A DNA stretch of 38,299 nt from a virus. Below, piece after piece: positions 4,361 to 36,660 of this stretch. The notes beneath the pieces were generated by a model. It searched no databases. It saw nothing but the letters and a program-made list of their open reading frames with translations, and had not been told where the DNA came from. The stretch is taken from the IMG/VR virus record IMGVR_UViG_3300036845_000114, positions 1 through 38,299 of that record; one strand, 5' to 3'. Position numbers and translations under genes: made by a program. Each line of letters opens with the position of its first letter. Within the stretch, counting starts at the first letter, position 1.

Positions 4361-4389
4361 CAACTGCTACCAGCTAGTGTTACCAGCTT
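4361..4389 (+). repeat. AACTGYTACCA-type repeats (distant copy)
   Basis: One exact AACTGCTACCA (4362-4372) and one degenerate copy, GTGTTACCAGCTT, follow the HTH gene. The 15-mer CAACTGCTACCAGCT at 4361-4375 is identical to 35272-35286 in the repeat cluster upstream of the integrase. It is probably a second binding site for the same protein. Confidence 0.5.
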
Positions 4390-6966: not shown

Positions 6967-7432
6967 GCTGCAATGGCGGCACCGCGCTAGCGGCCTGCCC
7001 TGTCTCATCGTGCGCAACGTGCATGTCACGGGCGCGCTGTGCGGCTACGTCGGGGTACTTAAGGGGCATCGTTGCTTCGGTAAGAGCTACGACAGCGGCA
7101 AGCGCAACCCGGTGGATAAATTGCGCGTGCATGGTGGCATCACGTTTGGCAATTTTTGCCGCCCCAACGCCGATGAAGCTCGCGATATTTGCCATGTCGT
7201 AGCGCCCGGCGAAGATGAGCATGTGTGGTGGCTTGGTTTTGATTGCTCGCACGCGGGCGACTTGTCCCCGATGCTCGATTCAACCTTGCGCGCTATTCCG
7301 GCGATTGCCGAGCTACGCGCGCAGCGCAGTACGTTGCAGCAAATGCTTGGCGCGCATGAAAGCTATCGGGATTTAGCCTATGTGCGGCGCGAAGTTAGTT
7401 TCTTAGCGCGGCAATTGGCGGCGATGGCGTGA
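6893..7432 (+). CDS. conserved phage protein of unknown function
   Basis: A 179-aa protein. ATG 6893 is chosen for GAGGGG 4 bases upstream. The conserved block EPDKLQWRHRASGLPCLIVRN, then GALCGYVGV, then VHGGITFG and WWLGFDCSHAGDLSP recurs in many phages and prophages. Its Cys, His and Trp-rich core suggests a small alpha/beta fold; no activity is established. The C-terminal 45 residues are helical. The stop overlaps the GTG of the next gene. Confidence 0.65.
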   Translation: MKTISYNTLDKSVWGAGPWVQEPDKLQWRHRASGLPCLIVRNVHVTGALCGYVGVLKGHRCFGKSYDSGKRNPVDKLRVHGGITFGNFCRPNADEARDICHVVAPGEDEHVWWLGFDCSHAGDLSPMLDSTLRAIPAIAELRAQRSTLQQMLGAHESYRDLAYVRREVSFLARQLAAMA

Positions 7433-7845
7433 AAATTTTAGTTTGCGGCGGGCGTGAGTACGCCGAAAAAGATTTTTTGTACGATTATTTAGATGGGTTT
7501 CGCAAGACGTGGGAATGGGGTGAGGTGAAGATAACGCACTTAATCCATGGCGATGCGCGCGGCGCCGATCATTTGGCGCACGGTTGGGCGGTGTTGCATG
7601 GCGTGCAACCGGTGCGCGTGCCCGCGCTATGGGATTTGTTCGGGCCCAAAGCGGGCGCAATACGTAACGCTCGGATGTTAGCGTTGCTCGATTTGGAAAG
7701 GGATTTTGTGATTGCATTTGCAGGCGGGGCAGGGACCGCGCACATGATGAGTATTGCTAGGAAAGCAAAGGCGCGAGTAATAGACACAACTGAAAAGGGG
7801 CGAACCAATGAACGCATACGAAATGATCATGAGGGCAGCGGATAA
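7429..7845 (+). CDS. SLOG-superfamily protein (YspA-like, DUF2493)
   Basis: A 138-aa protein starting at GTG 7429 (GTGA overlap). KILVCGGREYAEKDF is followed by HLIHGDARGADHLAHGWA and, later, RNARML and AFAGGAGTAHM: the YspA/SRK family of the SLOG Rossmann-like fold. SLOG proteins bind nucleotides or nucleotide-derived ligands, and several act as sensors or effectors. Phage copies are frequent, and their role is unsettled: nucleotide metabolism or countering host signalling defences are both open. The C-terminal 38 nt overlap the next gene. Confidence 0.75.
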   Translation: MKILVCGGREYAEKDFLYDYLDGFRKTWEWGEVKITHLIHGDARGADHLAHGWAVLHGVQPVRVPALWDLFGPKAGAIRNARMLALLDLERDFVIAFAGGAGTAHMMSIARKAKARVIDTTEKGRTNERIRNDHEGSG

Positions 7846-8809: not shown

Positions 8810-8895
8810 AAAGTTTTTGGGCCCGACGTACTAGAGTAAAAATTGGAAATAGATAACACCTTTTGCCGTTCTGGAAAAAACGGCTTAAAACCCTT

Positions 8896-8970
8896 GCGGG
8901 TTAGCTCAGTTGGTTAGAGCGCAGTACTTGTAATACTGTGGTCGCCGGTTCGATTCCGGTATCCGCACCA
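8896..8970 (+). tRNA. tRNA-Thr (anticodon TGT)
   Basis: A cloverleaf: D arm GCTC/GAGC, anticodon stem CAGTA/TACTG with loop CTTGTAA (TGT, reading ACA), 5-base variable loop, T arm GCCGG-TTCGATT-CCGGT, and encoded CCA. The acceptor stem has only six pairs (GCGGGT/ATCCGC, including one G-T), because both strands are one base short. A seventh pair would need T8895 with the discriminator A, and would then shift the CCA. It lies between an accessory block and late-proximal small genes. Confidence 0.85.
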
Positions 8971-9661: not shown

Positions 9662-9859
9662 GTGCGCGCAGCGGCGGCGCCGCAGCTAATGCAAGCGGCG
9701 CAAGAAGCGGCGGGGCATGATGTTTTTTTCGCGGGGAATGCAGCAACGAATGCTTTTGATTTGGATACCGGGGTTAAGTATTTAAAGAGCCTAGGGAATA
9801 CGACTAGCTATAGCGGTGCGAGCTTTACGAACACCGCAGCGACAACGGGCGGCAGATGA
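9662..9859 (+). CDS. hypothetical Ala-rich protein
   Basis: The frame opens in a very GC-rich stretch; GTG 9662 is the best start seen (MRAAAAPQLMQ). The product is 65 aa, Ala-rich and then Thr/Ser/Gly-rich. The stop overlaps the next gene by ATGA, which favours it being real. It could be a distant scaffold-like or disordered protein; nothing specific can be said. Confidence 0.4.
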   Translation: MRAAAAPQLMQAAQEAAGHDVFFAGNAATNAFDLDTGVKYLKSLGNTTSYSGASFTNTAATTGGR

Positions 9860-10128
9860 AATATAGGGAACATCGCGGCGGCCTTAGCGCAAGTATGGCT
9901 ACAGTTGTAGAGATACCCGACAAGGCCGCCTTAATTAAGTACCTTCGCGCATCGTTCGATGCGTGGAATAAAATGGTGCCCGGCTTAGAGCATAACTTCC
10001 CGCGCATCGATGACGATACGGTGAAGGTTGCAAAGTACCATTACGATGAGCGCATAAAATGGGATACGCACATCGTGACCATTGAAAAGTATGGCCCGGT
10101 GGGCTTTACAGACGGCCCATGCGCATAG
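9856..10128 (+). CDS. conserved phage protein
   Basis: A 90-aa protein. MKYREHRGGLSASMATVVEI, then ALIKYLR, belongs to a recurring phage family with a 'MkYReqRGsLaeSMaTvvE' opening. The rest contains NFPRIDDDTVKVAKYHYDER and a final GFTDGP. Function is unknown. It is coupled to the previous gene by an ATGA overlap. Confidence 0.6.
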   Translation: MKYREHRGGLSASMATVVEIPDKAALIKYLRASFDAWNKMVPGLEHNFPRIDDDTVKVAKYHYDERIKWDTHIVTIEKYGPVGFTDGPCA

Positions 10129-12034: not shown

Positions 12035-12424
12035 ATGGGCACCGTTAAAGATAATCCGAAGATGGCAAAGAACATTGGCGTTAAAGGCGTTGAGCCGCCG
12101 CAATTTGCCAAATATCGCGCCGAGCGCATCCCGGGGCAGCCTACAAAAGCGCGCGCGCGGATTCAATCGAGTTTCTTAAACGCGCTAGCGGATGACTTCG
12201 ACAAGCACGGGCGCGGCGCGATTGAGTATTGCCGCCGCAATGACCCGACCGCTTACGTAAAGGTTTGCGCGTCGCTCATGCCGAAGGAATTCAAGCAAGT
12301 TTCCCCATTGGAAGAAATGACCGAGGCCGAACTAGTTGCAGCCGTCGAACATATCCGAAGCAAGATTATTGGAAATCTTGACGCGGGAATTATTGAAACG
12401 TCGGGCACGGAATCAATTAACTAG
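12035..12424 (+). CDS. terminase small subunit
   Basis: A 129-aa protein. The segment SFLNALADDFDKHGRGAIEY, then DPTAYVKVCASLMPKEF and an ELVAAVEHIRSKI helix, is the common pattern of podo- and siphovirus small terminases. These bind the packaging site and present DNA to the large subunit. A basic N-terminal part could contact DNA. The last 89 bases overlap the large-subunit frame, an unusually long overlap that leaves the start of the next gene open. Confidence 0.75.
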   Translation: MGTVKDNPKMAKNIGVKGVEPPQFAKYRAERIPGQPTKARARIQSSFLNALADDFDKHGRGAIEYCRRNDPTAYVKVCASLMPKEFKQVSPLEEMTEAELVAAVEHIRSKIIGNLDAGIIETSGTESIN

Positions 12425-13763
12425 CTATAAGCCGTATCCGAAACAATTAGAATTTCACGCGGCGGGCTTGGATTACCGCGAGCGCTTGCTAATGGCAGGC
12501 AATCAACTAGGCAAGACGCTAGCGGCGGGCATGGAAACCGCCATGCACTTGACCGGGCAATACCCGCCCGATTGGCCCGGGCGCCATTGGCGCCGCCCCG
12601 TGGTGGGGTGGGCGGCGGGGGTTACGGGCGAGTCAACGCGCGATAACCCGCAACGCATTTTGCTTGGGCGCCCCGGCGAATTTGGTACCGGTGCGATTCC
12701 GAAAGATTTAATTATCGATCATACAAGCTCGCGCGGCATGGCGGATGCGCTCGATACCGTGCGCGTGCGCCATATTTCCGGCGATGTTTCTACGCTGCAA
12801 TTTAAAGCGTATGAGAAGGGCCGCGAGAAATGGCAAGGGGAAACGCTAGACTTTGTTTGGTTTGACGAAGAGCCGCCCGAAGATATCTATACGGAAGGCT
12901 TGACGCGGACCAACGCTACCGGGGGCATGACGTTTATTACCTTTACGCCGCTCCAAGGTATTACGGGTGTCGTGCGCCGCTTCATTATCGATAAACAAAT
13001 CGGCACACACTTTACGCAAATGGCGATAGATGACGCGGCGCACTTCACGCCCGCGCAGCGCGACGCAATCATAGGCAGTTACAAGATTTATGAGCGCGAC
13101 GCCCGCACTAAGGGCATTCCACAACTTGGGAGCGGCCGCGTGTTTCCAGTGAATGACGATGACTTGCGGGTGAAGGCCTTCGCCATCCCCGACCATTGGC
13201 CGCAGATCGCCGGGCTAGATTTCGGGTGGGACCATCCGAGCGCGGCGGCGCGGCTCGCATGGGATCGCGATAACGATATTTTGTATGTCACCGCGATTAA
13301 GCGCGCGCGCGAGAACACGCCAACCATGTTTGCCGCGAGCGTGAAAGCTTGGGGCGCCTGGTTGCCGTGGGCCTGGCCGCATGACGGCTTGCAACACGAC
13401 AAGGGCAGCGGTGAGCAATTGGCCGCGCAGTACCGCGAGCAAGGCTTAAACCTTTTGCGCGTGCGCGCCACCTTTCCCGATGGCAGCAACGGCTTAGAAG
13501 CCGGAGTCACGGAAATGTTAGACCGCATGCAAACCGGTCGATTGTTGGTCTTCGATCATTTAGCGGATTGGTTCGAAGAGTTTAATTTGTACCATCGCAA
13601 AGAGGGCCTAATCGTCAAGCTAAACGACGATTTAATGAGCGCAACACGCTACGCCATGATGATGCGCCGATTTGCGAGCGTGGCGAGCAAGCTTATTCCC
13701 CGCCCGCACTTTGAACGGCTCTTCGTCGGGCGTAACGGTGATGAACACGGTTGGATGATGTAA
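12336..13763 (+). CDS. terminase large subunit
   Basis: The packaging ATPase and nuclease, 475 aa if begun at TTG 12336; TTG 12369, 12378 or 12393 are other options, as no ATG precedes the conserved part. YKPYPKQLEFH leads into Walker A G55-NQLGKT-61, then Walker B LDFVWFDEE (171-179). The RNase H-like nuclease part starts with IAGLDFGWDHP (D295), followed by the PHDG aspartate near residue 365. Length and motifs fit complete, active large terminases of P22/BcepC6B-type phages. It cuts concatemers and drives DNA into procapsids through the portal at 14071. Confidence 0.9.
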   Translation: MQPSNISEARLLEILTRELLKRRARNQLTSYKPYPKQLEFHAAGLDYRERLLMAGNQLGKTLAAGMETAMHLTGQYPPDWPGRHWRRPVVGWAAGVTGESTRDNPQRILLGRPGEFGTGAIPKDLIIDHTSSRGMADALDTVRVRHISGDVSTLQFKAYEKGREKWQGETLDFVWFDEEPPEDIYTEGLTRTNATGGMTFITFTPLQGITGVVRRFIIDKQIGTHFTQMAIDDAAHFTPAQRDAIIGSYKIYERDARTKGIPQLGSGRVFPVNDDDLRVKAFAIPDHWPQIAGLDFGWDHPSAAARLAWDRDNDILYVTAIKRARENTPTMFAASVKAWGAWLPWAWPHDGLQHDKGSGEQLAAQYREQGLNLLRVRATFPDGSNGLEAGVTEMLDRMQTGRLLVFDHLADWFEEFNLYHRKEGLIVKLNDDLMSATRYAMMMRRFASVASKLIPRPHFERLFVGRNGDEHGWMM

Positions 13764-33199: not shown

Positions 33200-33382
33200 A
33201 TGCAGTTCGATTTCACCGACCAAGAAATGAATTTGATTCTAGCGGGCTTGTCCGAGCTACCCGTGAAAACATCGCTAACGCTCATTAATCAAATTATGGC
33301 GCGCTACCAAAAGCCGGTAACACTCGGTAATGGCGCCGTCATGGAGCAACCGAAAAATGATGCTAATCAAATCGCTAATTAA
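33200..33382 (+). CDS. small conserved late protein
   Basis: A 60-aa protein with TTTGGAG upstream. MQFDFTDQEMNLILAGLSEL, then LINQIMARYQ, forms two helices; similar short proteins are common in phage late regions, with unknown function. It overlaps the following holin-like gene by 26 bases. Confidence 0.5.
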   Translation: MQFDFTDQEMNLILAGLSELPVKTSLTLINQIMARYQKPVTLGNGAVMEQPKNDANQIAN

Positions 33383-33572
33383 GGATTTTCTCTCATGGTG
33401 CGCCGTGGCTTTGGGCGCGCTAAGCGCTATCGCGCCGCATTGGTCGGGGCTCATGGAATTTCTAAAGTTAGACGGCAAGACAACCGAATATGAGGGCGTA
33501 GTGGTCGCGCTAGTCTTGCTTATCGTTCGCGCCTTCACGCTATCGAAACAGTTGCCGCCGCCTAAAATCTAG
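33357..33572 (+). CDS. candidate holin
   Basis: A 71-aa protein from ATG 33357 (or 33360), with GGAG about 10 bases upstream. There are two membrane segments, about 12-30 and 47-65, separated by a charged loop [14 protein letters not shown], and a short polar tail. Size, topology and position at the end of the late operon suit a class II or related holin. No endolysin or spanin lies beside it in this window. The stop overlaps the antisense csrA stop by 4 bases. Confidence 0.5.
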
Positions 33573-33760
33573 CGGTTACCCCAATCGGGCGAAACATAGT
33601 CCGGGTGTATCTTCTGATAGATTTCTTCCCGGTGTACTTCAAGAGTTTTCGGGGCCGCAATGCCGACCCGCACTTGATTGCCCCTCACGTCAAGAATCGT
33701 TACCGTTACCGTGTCGCCGATCATTAGCGACTCGCCTACCCGCCTTGTAAGAATCAACAT
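33569..33760 (-). CDS. csrA: carbon storage regulator CsrA (phage-borne)
   Basis: A 63-aa protein with the complete CsrA sequence pattern: [50 protein letters not shown]. The RNA-contacting L4 and R44 are both present, and length equals bacterial CsrA (61 aa plus tail). CsrA dimers bind GGA-containing leaders and block or stabilise mRNAs of carbon storage, motility and biofilm. Here it is the last gene of a phage operon behind a triple-HTH gene. It may act on host mRNA during lysogeny or infection, or on phage messages; the targets are unknown. Confidence 0.93.
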
Positions 33761-33787
33761 AAGAAACGCGCCCCCCTGGCTTCAAAA

Positions 33788-34720
33788 CTATTCCCCTGTA
33801 AGTGTACGCAAGGCCTGCAATACTAGTAGATGCATTTCGTTGAATTCTTTAATCACTCCGTTTTGTAAATCCGCATAGGCCGCCGCCTTCGCATGCTTCA
33901 AGAGCGCCACCGCATCGCGCATGCGCGTGGATAACACCGCCGTTGTTTCTTCGACTTGCTTCTTGCTGTCGCCGTAACTAATCCCGATACGCGCGCCGCC
34001 TCCATTCTTTTTTGGCTTTCCTTTGTTCGCTAACCCGCCTTTGCGCCCCGCCGCCGCTCGCCACGCATGTTGTTTATTCTTGTCGCTACTCCAATTGTAA
34101 ACGTTCGAAATGTCGATACCTAAGCTGTCTGCTACTTCCTTCGCCGACTCGCCCGCCTTCAATCGTTTGAGCGCCGCCACCTTGTAGAGCGCCGTATAGG
34201 TTCCCCTCTTTACATCCTTTTTTTGGGTTGTCATTTTCGCCTTTTTTTGTTGCATCAATTCATTGCGCCGCGCCCATTCTTTTTTATAGTTTCGCCCGCC
34301 CTTGTGCTTCGCCGGGTCGCGCGTTTTGTGGTAGGGCTCGCGGCCTTCGCCAATCATTCGGCGCCACGCCGAAAGAATGCTTGGGCGTACGTCTAGCTCG
34401 CGGCCTAGATCGGCGCTGTTAATCTCGCCCGACATGAGCCGCGCAACGGCTTCTTTTTTGTAGGCATCCGAATAAACCTTATTACCCGATGGCCCGACGA
34501 TAAAGCCCGTTTCCGGTTTATCTACGTCCATGCCCTTACCGCGTACCCATTGCCTAACGTGCGTCGGGTGTACGCCTAGCTCTTCGCCTACGGCGCGCGC
34601 GGTTTCCCCGCCCTTAATGCGCTCTACAACTTTTAATTTAAAGGCATGTGTATAGGCGTGCTTACCGGCTCGCGTTAGCGTCACGCCTTCGGGTAGTTGT
34701 TGGGGGGCGTTTTCTGCCAT
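33788..34720 (-). CDS. triple helix-turn-helix protein (transposase-type HTH, no catalytic domain)
   Basis: A 310-aa protein from ATG 34720 (GAGGG 6 bases upstream). It has three units similar to the HTH of IS3-type transposases: residues 23-60 (YTHAFKLKVVERIKGGETAR...VRQWV), 83-123 (YSDAYKKEAVARLMSGEI...ILSAWRR) and 175-211 (YTALYKVAALKRLKAGESAK...VYNWS). Basic linkers separate them and a helix closes the chain (about 255-308). No DDE or serine-recombinase motif is seen. It probably binds long DNA sites as a regulator. It is co-transcribed with the zinc-ribbon gene and csrA. Confidence 0.75.
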   Translation of the reverse strand: MAENAPQQLPEGVTLTRAGKHAYTHAFKLKVVERIKGGETARAVGEELGVHPTHVRQWVRGKGMDVDKPETGFIVGPSGNKVYSDAYKKEAVARLMSGEINSADLGRELDVRPSILSAWRRMIGEGREPYHKTRDPAKHKGGRNYKKEWARRNELMQQKKAKMTTQKKDVKRGTYTALYKVAALKRLKAGESAKEVADSLGIDISNVYNWSSDKNKQHAWRAAAGRKGGLANKGKPKKNGGGARIGISYGDSKKQVEETTAVLSTRMRDAVALLKHAKAAAYADLQNGVIKEFNEMHLLVLQALRTLTGE

Positions 34721-34964
34721 ATGCAACCCTCATTGTTTTGTTGTCACGTTTCTCTTTCCTAAATGCCGCTAAGTCTTGGTCGGCTTTCCGGTCTTCAAAG
34801 TTGGTGATTCGAAATAAGCTTTTTTCGCGCTTATAGCGTGCATCGATTAGCTCGGCGGGCGTCTTCTTATCCCAGTAGTACATTGATTGGCGGCATTTCT
34901 GACAGTATTTTTTTCGGCCATGTACGGGCAAAGATTCCGGGCAGCGGAAGGTCGGGCATTTCAT
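34662..34964 (-). CDS. phage zinc-ribbon protein
   Basis: A 100-aa protein. C3, C8, C21 and C24 (MKCPTFRCPESLPVHGRKKY, then CQKC) resemble a small phage family with 'VHGRKKHCAKCR' and 'YW-K-PPAE'. The rest is basic and helical, ending in an Arg-rich tail. The last 59 bases overlap the triple-HTH gene. AAAGGGG precedes the start, and the 34981-34994 palindrome lies directly upstream of that, so this is the first gene of the operon. Confidence 0.65.
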   Translation of the reverse strand: MKCPTFRCPESLPVHGRKKYCQKCRQSMYYWDKKTPAELIDARYKREKSLFRITNFEDRKADQDLAAFRKEKRDNKTMRVAYGRKRPPTTTRRRDANASR

Positions 34965-34980
34965 CCTTAAACCCCTTTAG

Positions 34981-34994
34981 GTGTGTATACACAC
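34981..34994. promoter_or_regulatory. perfect 14-bp operator palindrome
   Basis: GTGTGTATACACAC is fully self-complementary and sits 17 bases before the start of the minus-strand operon, next to its AAAGGGG. Its TGTGTATA core equals the cores of the early sites at 3199-3212 and 3307-3320. It probably controls the zinc ribbon/triple HTH/csrA operon by the same regulator. Confidence 0.6.
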
Positions 34995-35078
34995 AAGAGA
35001 GCTTAACTCCATGCCCTTTGTGCTGCCAAGCATAAAAAGAATATACATGATTGTTTTAAATGTTCGCGCATGGTTTAG

Positions 35079-35102
35079 AACTGCTACCAGAACTGCTACC
35101 AG
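35079..35102 (+). repeat. AACTGYTACCA repeat pair A
   Basis: Two exact copies of AACTGCTACCAG in tandem (12-base period). This is the farthest pair from the integrase gene. Confidence 0.8.
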
Positions 35103-35197
35103 GCACGTCTAAGTGATTGATAATAAAGGGCAAAAAACTGGCATTGATAATGAATAATTATAACAGTATTATATGAATCAAGCCCTTACGGGGCAAT

Positions 35198-35218
35198 TGG
35201 TAACAGTTGGTAGCAGTT
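35198..35218 (-). repeat. AACTGYTACCA repeat pair B (inverted)
   Basis: Two inverted copies, TGGTAACAGTT and TGGTAGCAGTT, with a 10-base period. The orientation is opposite to pairs A and C. Confidence 0.8.
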
Positions 35219-35262
35219 GGAAACACCTAGAAACATAGGGAAACAGCATGTCGAGTAAACCC

Positions 35263-35283
35263 AACTGTTACCAACTGCTACCA
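35263..35283 (+). repeat. AACTGYTACCA repeat pair C
   Basis: AACTGTTACCA and AACTGCTACCA with a 10-base period, about 44 bases upstream of the integrase start. The 15-mer CAACTGCTACCAGCT here is identical to 4361-4375. Confidence 0.8.
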
Positions 35284-35326
35284 GCTTTTGAAGTCGATTA
35301 TTATTCATCACAAGGAGTGCAATTCC

Positions 35327-36367
35327 ATGGCAACCACAGTTAAGCGCGGTAAAGTTTACCGCACCTCAATCCGCTTATCCGGCATGTCACAACCGGTCAC
35401 CATGACCCACGCCACCAAGGCGGAAGGGAAAGTATGGGGCATGCAAGAAGAGAAGCGCCTACGCGGGCGCTTGAAGCTCTCCGGGTTATCCTTCGGCGAT
35501 GTGATCCGCGCCTATATCGTGAGCAAATGCAAAGACCCCGCCAAGGCGCGCAACGCCACGCAACTGCGCCGCTTTGCAACCGAGTTTGATCGCACCGCCA
35601 TTAAGGACATGACGTGCAAATGGTGGGAAGAAACCGCGCTAGCCTGGCCGAATCTTACCCCCTTTAGCCGCATGACCTACATGCAACGCTTACGCATGGT
35701 CATGAAATGGGCGAAGAATGGCCCGGATAAAGTGCAGTTCGATTGGGATGCGGTTAAAGAAGCCACCGGGTACTTGCTCGCCAATAAGGACATTACCACC
35801 AAGGCACGCAAGCGCGAGCGGCGCGCATCGGATAACGAACTGGCGCGCTTAAAGGCTTGCTCGAATAACACCAAGTATCCTATCGGGGATGTCATCGAAT
35901 TCGGCGTGCTTACGGGTTTGCGTATCGGGGAAATCTGCAAATTAAAATGGGCGGATTTCTACCAAACCAAGCGCGGCCCGATGATTACCGTACATGACCG
36001 GAAAGACCCGCATAACCAGGACGGCAACGATGGGGAAATTCCCTTGCTCGGCAACGCCGCCGCCATCGTGCAACGCCAGCCGAAAGGCGATGCGCGTATC
36101 TTCCCCTTCGACCCCAATGCCTTTGGTAACGCGTATCGCGCCGTGCGCCATCGTGCGGGCATCAAAAATTTGCGCGTCCATGACTTGCGCCATGAAGCGA
36201 TAACGCGCCTGTTCGAGCAAGGCTACTCAATCGAAGAGGTATCGGACATTTCCGGGCACAAGGATTGGGAAACCTTGAAGCACTATCGCATCGGTGATTC
36301 ATCGCGCTTGCATGATGGGCCGATTGCCAACATGCTCGCGGCGCAAGGCCGCAAGCGCGTCGCTTAA
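35327..36367 (+). CDS. tyrosine recombinase (phage integrase)
   Basis: A 346-aa protein. ATG 35327 is chosen because AAGGAG is 9 bases upstream; a longer frame from 35288 lacks one. The N-terminal arm-binding type domain (GKVYRTSIRLSGMSQPVTMT) resembles shufflon/integrase families. The catalytic set is complete: R199 (GVLTGLRIGE), K226, H285-x-x-R288 (HDLRH), H311 (SGHKDW) and Y320 (KHYRIG). It should integrate the phage at an attachment site. It converges on the Xis-like gene with only 5 bases between the stops. Confidence 0.9.
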   Translation: MATTVKRGKVYRTSIRLSGMSQPVTMTHATKAEGKVWGMQEEKRLRGRLKLSGLSFGDVIRAYIVSKCKDPAKARNATQLRRFATEFDRTAIKDMTCKWWEETALAWPNLTPFSRMTYMQRLRMVMKWAKNGPDKVQFDWDAVKEATGYLLANKDITTKARKRERRASDNELARLKACSNNTKYPIGDVIEFGVLTGLRIGEICKLKWADFYQTKRGPMITVHDRKDPHNQDGNDGEIPLLGNAAAIVQRQPKGDARIFPFDPNAFGNAYRAVRHRAGIKNLRVHDLRHEAITRLFEQGYSIEEVSDISGHKDWETLKHYRIGDSSRLHDGPIANMLAAQGRKRVA

Positions 36368-36372
36368 GGGCT

Positions 36373-36660
36373 CTAGGCGGCGGCGCTCTTCTTGCGCCGC
36401 CGCCCCTTGCGCCCATCCGGGCGCGGCGGCTCTTCCAGCTTCTTTAATCCCTTCGCCCGTTGTTCCCTAAAATAATTGTCAATGACGTCTTTATCGACCA
36501 CGATAAAGCGCCCAAGGCGGTACGTCATCACCGGGAAACGCTCTTCCAGCACGGCATTTTTCGCACTCCCATAGGTCATGCCGAACATGTCGCACGCCAC
36601 GCTCAAGGGTAACCAGGGGTAGGTATCGTAATTCGGCAACGCGCGTTTGCGATTTCCCAT
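36373..36660 (-). CDS. Xis/AlpA-like DNA-binding protein
   Basis: A 95-aa protein. LPLSVACDMFGMTYGSAKNA, then an RFPVMTYRLGRFIVVDKDVI, has the winged-helix order of excisionase and AlpA-type proteins, with a 'hydrophobic-x-hydrophobic-VDK--ID-Y' wing and a Lys/Arg-rich C-terminus. PrtN-type activators have a similar pattern, so a transcription role is possible. Its gene faces the integrase tail to tail, which favours a recombination directionality factor. Confidence 0.6.
   Translation of the reverse strand: MGNRKRALPNYDTYPWLPLSVACDMFGMTYGSAKNAVLEERFPVMTYRLGRFIVVDKDVIDNYFREQRAKGLKKLEEPPRPDGRKGRRRKKSAAA
36376..36404. terminator. strong GC hairpin between convergent int and xis-like genes
   Basis: GGCGGCGGCGC (36376-36386), loop TCTTCTT, GCGCCGCCGCC (36394-36404): 11 perfect pairs. 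It lies within the last codons of the Xis-like gene, just past the int stop. There is no T-run, so at best it is a partial terminator or an RNA-stability element for both messages. Confidence 0.45.

Follow-up and report, generated by a model that had tools for sequence, protein, structure and literature searches.

A compact operon joining a four-cysteine protein, a tandem helix-turn-helix protein and CsrA is a candidate two-level regulator for the lysogeny stage of P22-like phages

We describe a single compact operon of a temperate P22-like phage that consists of genes for a small four-cysteine protein (Cys4 protein), a protein with an array of helix-turn-helix (HTH) units, and CsrA. The reading we prefer, with confidence that falls just short of even, is that this operon would be an accessory lysogeny-stage regulator of temperate P22-like phages, acting at two levels, transcription and translation. 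The window, by which we mean the whole stretch of DNA analysed, is a 38,299-base viral record that encodes a portal and a coat protein of P22 type, a terminase and a single tyrosine integrase. All three operon genes are confirmed as open reading frames on the minus strand, where a sequence-only reading of the window had placed them. The first (34662-34964) encodes a small, basic, putatively zinc-binding protein of 100 aa; the second (33788-34720, counted from its ATG) encodes the 310-aa HTH-array protein, with three HTH_Tnp_1 units followed by a conserved C-terminal helical hairpin; the third, csrA (33569-33760), encodes a CsrA/RsmA-type RNA-binding protein of 63 aa. The Cys4 gene shares 59 nt with the HTH gene, and 27 nt separate the HTH stop codon from csrA. 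As also claimed earlier, the stop codon of csrA shares 4 bases, tail-to-tail, with that of the last late ORF (33330-33572, plus strand), whose 80-aa product is hydrophobic by eye and has no match in Pfam, NCBIfam or PHROG; a convergent 4-base overlap alone is no demonstration of antisense function. On the other side, an intergenic region (34965-35326) separates the operon from the divergent tyrosine integrase gene (35327-36367, plus strand; PF00589, 3e-17). A scan of the region for promoters and terminators gave no clear excess over shuffled sequence (2 vs 2.6; 6 vs 3.7, sd 2.0). Elsewhere, the window has a tRNA-Thr (tgt) gene (8895-8969) and encodes what looks by eye like a YspA-related SLOG-family protein (7429-7845; the Pfam tally holds one YAcAr match, its member unnamed).

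The csrA product matches Pfam PF02599 at 86.7 bits (cut-off 27; E=1e-24) and the NCBIfam equivalog NF002469 at 99.4 bits (cut-off 73), and has homologues in the PDB down to 4e-22, in keeping with its earlier description as a full CsrA. It retains the segments MLILTRR and VHREEIY. The residues that we take to contact RNA are L4 and R44 (E. coli numbering); this L and R are conserved in the 14 untruncated homologues, the R being missing from one truncated copy (in G020). Because the phage protein keeps these residues, it is likely to bind mRNA. Its identity to records labelled phage is at most 70% over 54 residues, with 72% identity to one 691-kb record labelled Salmonella, and in the collections searched relatives of it occur in 85 records of the phage collection and in 240 plasmid records, a few of the latter as large as chromosomes. 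In the window and in its two closest relatives, L001 and L002, the Cys4 start codon overlaps with the sequence AAGGAUG, which a Shine-Dalgarno-like sequence alone could give. GGA motifs, which CsrA-family proteins bind in mRNA hairpins, proved uninformative about CsrA autoregulation, since Shine-Dalgarno sequences carry identical letters, and A-N-G-G-A occurs within 25 nt upstream of 10 of the 50 window ORFs of at least 80 aa.

The description of the second gene product as a triple-HTH protein holds, with HTH_Tnp_1 matched in three stretches (Pfam E=5.4e-20). Its C-terminal part has no Pfam family, and the HTH-array family as a whole has no model of its own in Pfam, NCBIfam or PHROG. An AF2 model (mean pLDDT 70.6, pTM 0.29) consists of separate three-helix units and the C-terminal helical hairpin; the units are credible and their mutual arrangement is not. 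Tandem DNA binding is likely, and dimerisation through the hairpin would be a guess. Foldseek returned no PDB match at E<=0.001, the weak fold matches including paired-type HTHs such as those of IstA and Mos1, and the four BFVD matches at E<=0.001 have TM-scores of only 0.12-0.18; most hits of a profile search against PDB sequences were small proteins of HTH or homeodomain type, the best at 6.6e-6. There was no match to the HTH protein among 50,697 phage-collection records, and three plasmid records gave partial, transposase-like matches. We rejected several identities for this protein. The Pfam and NCBIfam matches include no catalytic DDE domain, as a transposase would have, and the NCBIfam IS3 and IS66 TnpA matches fall below cut-off (37.5 vs 160 bits and 40.4 vs 74); neither library gave a TnpB-type (RuvC) match. 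A CI-type repressor is likewise not indicated, HTH_3 scoring 22.9 bits, just below its cut-off of 23, with no S24 domain in the protein. A small terminase gene is expected beside that of the large terminase (12336-13763), which lies ~20 kb away.

The Cys4 protein has the pattern C-x(4)-C...C-x(2)-C, and its four cysteines are kept in 16/16 homologues. Where it had been called a zinc ribbon, the conserved cysteine pattern (C-x(2,4)-C...C-x2-C) stands, whereas the ribbon itself is a prediction from that pattern. The protein has no Pfam or NCBIfam match and a single PHROG match at E=0.058; its profile matched no PDB sequence, and its AF2 model (mean pLDDT 78.4, helical from residue 22 onward) had no Foldseek match in the PDB.

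The operon recurs in other phages. Searching viral contigs with the operon genes and reading the matches gave 11 further records with a Cys4-HTH pair (G001-G011), and a portal search gave 72 relatives, 21 long ones of which were given to CsrA and HTH searches; four of these 21 are further carriers (G012, G013, G020 and G021). Across the resulting 15 further viral records and the window, the two genes are adjacent and on the same strand in 16/16, and they overlap or abut in all 12 records measured. Intact csrA lies directly downstream of the pair in 12/16 and after an extra 88-aa ORF in G008; in the remaining records it is cut to 35 codons (G020), not found (G012) or ~3.6 kb away beyond the integrase (G010). 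The three genes are thus not carried independently, without a shared neighbourhood, as had been suggested for a chance association; because their order recurs in diverged phages, we do not consider the unit to be chance. A small protein that starts MK(F/Y)REHRGGL, encoded in the early region of the window (9856-10128), is also encoded between HTH and csrA in G008 (L071:5688-5951) and directly after the truncated csrA in G020 (L201), as if recombined into the cassette. The terminal repeats of G004, G005, G009 and G011 are exactly 127 bp long and look more like an overlap left by the assembly of circular contigs than like a biological repeat.

How the records were found affects how closely csrA appears tied to the pair. 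Six (G004, G005, G006, G008, G009 and G011) were discovered with CsrA as bait, which inflates the linkage; five (G001, G002, G003, G007 and G010) were found with HTH or Cys4 and the last four with the portal. Among these nine records not baited with CsrA (window excluded), intact csrA is directly downstream in 6/9, and all three exceptions fall here. Viewed from CsrA, the HTH family lies upstream in 8 of the best 80 of 230 CsrA-relative loci, a count that could miss a few neighbours at the 6/80 loci with less than 700 nt of upstream sequence. Three single divergent queries for more relatives each matched only themselves. The cassette also follows the portal. Six of the 11 records found with operon genes have a portal 72-78% identical to that of the window, one of these (in G007) being broken into pieces 78% and 69% identical; G001-G003 are fragments of 22-24 kb, which is probably why they lack a portal, and no portal was matched in G008 (132,772 bases) or G010 (55,256 bases). 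Of the 21 long relatives from the portal search, the four with at least 73% identity carry the pair (one of these identities spans only 178 residues) and the 17 with at most 65% do not, 8 of the 17 being fragments shorter than 34 kb. By these comparisons the cassette is characteristic of a single phage clade, with G008 and G010 as two outsiders, and because it follows the portal clade, shared descent explains much of the linkage within the P22-like group.

The DNA-binding protein has changed greatly between these phages. Pairwise identity of HTH proteins drops to 24% in the records compared, and six phages with portals 72-78% identical to that of the window match its HTH protein at 26-38%; for G009, identity to the window is 72% for the portal, 26% for HTH, 30% for Cys4 and 61% for CsrA. 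By sequence comparison the HTH protein diverges much further than the virion genes do. Its length ranges from 157 aa with two Pfam units (G013) through 310 aa with three (window) to 509 aa in G021, whose homologue (L202:2598-4124) has about six units when Pfam matches at different places are combined. Variation from 2 to about 6 units between related phages is an unusual copy-number variation of DNA-binding units. Despite this divergence between phages, the window and its nearest relatives show constraint: csrA has 0 nonsynonymous and 12 synonymous differences from L001 and 2 and 11 from L002, and dN/dS against L001 and L002, respectively, is 0 and 0.05 for CsrA, 0.08 and 0.23 for HTH, and 0.08 and 0.15 for Cys4, compared with 0.07-0.08 for the portal (two contigs from the same samples). 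All three genes are under purifying selection and therefore maintained.

We compared pairwise distances by Mantel tests in 13 records, or 11 without near pairs, leaving out L001 (a near-duplicate), G012 (no csrA) and G020 (truncated csrA). Cys4 and HTH distances correlate at r=0.83 (r=0.69, p=0.0002 without near pairs), HTH and CsrA at r=0.51 (r=0.27, p=0.09) and Cys4 and CsrA at r=0.42 (r=0.12, p=0.21): Cys4 and HTH diverge together, and CsrA follows weakly. Since Cys4 and HTH are paired in every record and co-diverge, the two proteins probably work together. The earlier idea of one joint unit is accordingly best kept with a qualification: neighbourhood and purifying selection speak for it, whereas csrA, not found, truncated or moved in 3/16, is the loosest member.

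These data bear directly on an alternative that we consider unlikely while giving it real weight, namely that regulation by the phage itself lies with the Cys4-HTH pair, while csrA is an independent passenger, or moron, that hitch-hikes on the same promoter. The bait bias described above raises the standing of this alternative and lowers that of the two-level reading slightly. The three exceptional records, all from the set not baited with CsrA, fit a passenger, as does the weak HTH-CsrA correlation, and csrA occurs at unrelated places in other phages, including two without the HTH family: G016 (L203) and G023 (L204) are P22-like, lack the Cys4-HTH pair and have csrA elsewhere in the genome. 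Against a passenger, CsrA is found in 15/16 records with the pair (counting the truncated copy) but in 2/17 P22-like records without it; restricted to P22-like phages the contrast is 10/11 vs 2/17 (Fisher p=5e-5, a test that ignores kinship, with five of the 11 CsrA-baited and 8/17 being fragments shorter than 34 kb). The strong purifying selection on CsrA likewise argues that it is more than baggage.

The region between operon and integrase suggests where the operon would lie in a prophage. The sequence-only reading had proposed an operator in the 14-bp palindrome GTGTGTATACACAC (34981-34994), upstream of the operon. This palindrome is exact and its sequence occurs once in the window (tolerating as many as 3 mismatches gives 3 matches, of which two overlap at this site, compared with a shuffle mean of 0.48), but among the 11 intergenic regions compared it is kept only in the window and its two closest relatives, L001 and L002, so we do not regard it as a general operator; L087 contains another palindrome, of 12 bp, L055 has one of 10 bp at its integrase end, and none of 10 bp or more is present in the other six regions. 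In the window, L001 and L002 the palindrome may be an operator or alternatively the tip of an RNA hairpin that covers the ribosome-binding site. As a conserved feature we rejected such a hairpin over the Shine-Dalgarno sequence, since only the window, L001 and L002 form it among 12 folded leaders (z -1.6 to -2.6).

The same intergenic region contains paired arm-like repeats, TGGTARCAGTT, at 35079-35101, 35198-35218 and 35263-35283, with six exact copies there and one further exact copy elsewhere in the window. Arm-like repeats also recur as an apparently non-coding tandem pair far from the integrase, at 4362-4385 in the window, and likewise in G009 at about 39747-39768. Near 35112 the window has an attP-like core with one mismatch to AATCAATCACTTA, and 9/15 intergenic regions have a core within 2 mismatches. 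This test is partly circular, the core having been read from the same regions, and its shuffles preserve base composition only; the independent regions are those of G012, G013, G020 and G021, with 0, 1, 3 and 1 mismatches and fractions of equally good shuffles of 0.0, 0.0, 0.19 and 0.005. In 6/15 regions (L001, L008, L090, L029, L095 and G020) the core is no better than shuffles, at least 10% of which equal it. The core is not specific by itself, because an exact copy is also found in the CsrA loci L052 and L053, where over 9 kb separates it from the integrase-like ORF. Taking repeats and core together with the adjoining gene, we read the region as a putative attP, in which case integration would put the operon at one end of the prophage and the integrase at the other. 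A prophage end is the usual place for lysogenic-conversion genes.

The arrangement is shared by the P22-like carriers, in which operon and integrase are head-to-head across 328-631 bp. A PF00589 integrase was found in 10/10 carriers tested compared with 5/9 non-carriers; the integrases of G001, G002, G003 and G006 are related to those of other carriers, and the one in G010 was identified by reading; these five are included in the integrase profile, to which nothing in G008 matched. When we read the regions of five integrase-bearing relatives without the cassette, no head-to-head locus was recognisable. A small protein encoded at 36373-36660, convergent with the integrase of the window, looks by eye like an AlpA/excisionase-type protein and has no family match. 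An HTH profile search of genome contigs for a host confirmed nothing, and the Cys4 profile matched 0/398 and 0/399 sampled genomes in searches run without a positive control; genome contigs did include two distant portal relatives (38% and 35%), whose genomes have no Cys4 match. Because no host genome was found, we infer the lysogen from the integrase and the attP-like site.

The position beside int and the putative attP would also suit an operon that is the main lysogeny/immunity switch, with the HTH protein as repressor and operators in the intergenic region. We consider this improbable. In its favour, the DNA-binding protein diverges fast relative to virion genes, as in immunity regions, the arm-like repeats recur at second sites in the window and in G009 (near 39750), and nothing else in the window matches HTH_3 above cut-off, its HTH_3 matches being weak only, one of them in the HTH-array protein itself. 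However, HTH_3 exceeds the Pfam cut-off in 4/10 carriers (G004, G011, G020 and G021), and the genes of G004 and G021 read as CI-like, that of G021 with a Cro-like neighbour. Since HTH_3 is equally common in non-carriers (4/9; G014, G015, G016 and G024), the operon does not replace these genes, and a primary role in immunity is unlikely as a general rule. Moreover, the repeats are better explained as integrase arm sites; they differ between the window and L001, whose HTH proteins are 98% identical and whose integrases are 41% identical.

Slightly less credible still is a lytic-phase takeover, in which the operon would redirect transcription and mRNA use in the infected host. CsrA has fast, global effects, and early expression of the operon from a promoter of its own is conceivable, but the operon lies at the putative attP in the orientation opposite to the late genes, and every one of the 10 carriers tested has an integrase. 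Finally, it is very improbable that the HTH-array protein serves the adjoining integrase as an accessory factor in recombination (for directionality or attP architecture), since its constant association with int and attP-like repeats among P22-like carriers is offset by the near-identical HTH proteins beside dissimilar integrases in the window and L001, by the much more distant integrases (12-20% identity) beside the family in G009 and G010, and by G008, where no integrase match accompanies the family.

We therefore return to a two-level accessory regulator, which would work as follows. The operon would have its own promoter, active mainly in the lysogen, and after integration would sit at the chromosome-proximal end of the prophage. 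The HTH-array protein would bind phage and/or host DNA, with the Cys4 protein as its constant partner, and its specificity may shift quickly between phages through divergence and as HTH units are gained or lost. CsrA recognises a near-universal RNA motif; it would repress or stabilise mRNAs of both host and phage, and may also act on translation of its own operon. We speculate that in lytic growth late transcription, running antisense across the operon, could silence it.

The operon had been put forward as a combination not known from a described system. For this gene set that holds in the literature searched, where no paper joined csrA, helix-turn-helix, zinc ribbon and phage; it holds less well for the principle, as a parallel locus of a DNA-binder and CsrA, tldR-csrA, has been published (PMC13418256). 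As far as searched, then, the operon is new in composition and resembles CsrA-bearing regulatory clusters in logic, with tldR-csrA and lvrRABC as its nearest organisational parallels. For tldR-csrA of gut commensals, its authors propose that flagellin is controlled at transcription as well as translation, and they present ChIP-seq and RIP-seq (PMC13418256). There too the gene of a transposon-derived DNA-binding repressor is linked to csrA; TldR, however, is an RNA-guided derivative of TnpB, and the locus is chromosomal, flagellin-linked and has hin nearby (PMC13418256). The phage operon instead has a tandem HTH_Tnp_1 DNA binder and a Cys4 partner and is found in phages, and no flagellin family is among the matches of the 55 window proteins scanned. 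In lvrRABC of Legionella genomic islands and ICEs, the CsrA-family gene lvrC is the last gene, and the cluster is reported to regulate excision of one island (PMC3864950). Both clusters are small, conserved and regulatory, end in a CsrA-family gene and reside on an integrating element. They differ in that the Legionella elements are conjugative and LvrR has domains like those of SOS-response regulators (PMC3864950); Pfam finds no S24/LexA-type domain in the proteins of the operon.

CsrA is itself an occasional phage gene, present in 30/2517 phage genomes in a 2020 survey (PMC7366521), and in JC1 it is called a moron gene, with one peptide found in virions (PMC9144972). Other phages likewise encode full or partial CsrA (F116, PSTCR8lys, BcepIL02/JC1 and Vibrio phages; PHROG 9500/5527), with different neighbours: a CI-type repressor within ~2 kb in F116 and PSTCR8lys, virion genes in BcepIL02, an exonuclease in VvAW1 and unnamed genes in D279. 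Neither the Cys4 nor the HTH profile matched in five annotated phage csrA neighbourhoods. A CsrA-type regulator on another mobile element, RsmQ of plasmid pQBR103, takes control of host mRNAs, its carrier being a plasmid rather than a phage (PMC9928087).

Why mobile elements carry csrA is a wider question, and here csrA has a recurrent, selected genetic neighbour. Natural variants, with csrA present, absent or truncated and with 2 to about 6 HTH units, make what CsrA adds directly testable, and the HTH-array family offers a natural series of DNA-binding repeat proteins. We consider it doubtful, though worth stating, that the operon goes as far as a lysogenic-conversion device at the prophage end, in which an HTH array, its specificity re-programmed by divergence and by adding or dropping units, works with a constant Cys4 partner and CsrA. 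If true, this would be a new class of phage regulator that shuts down one set of host or phage genes twice over, first at transcription and then at translation.
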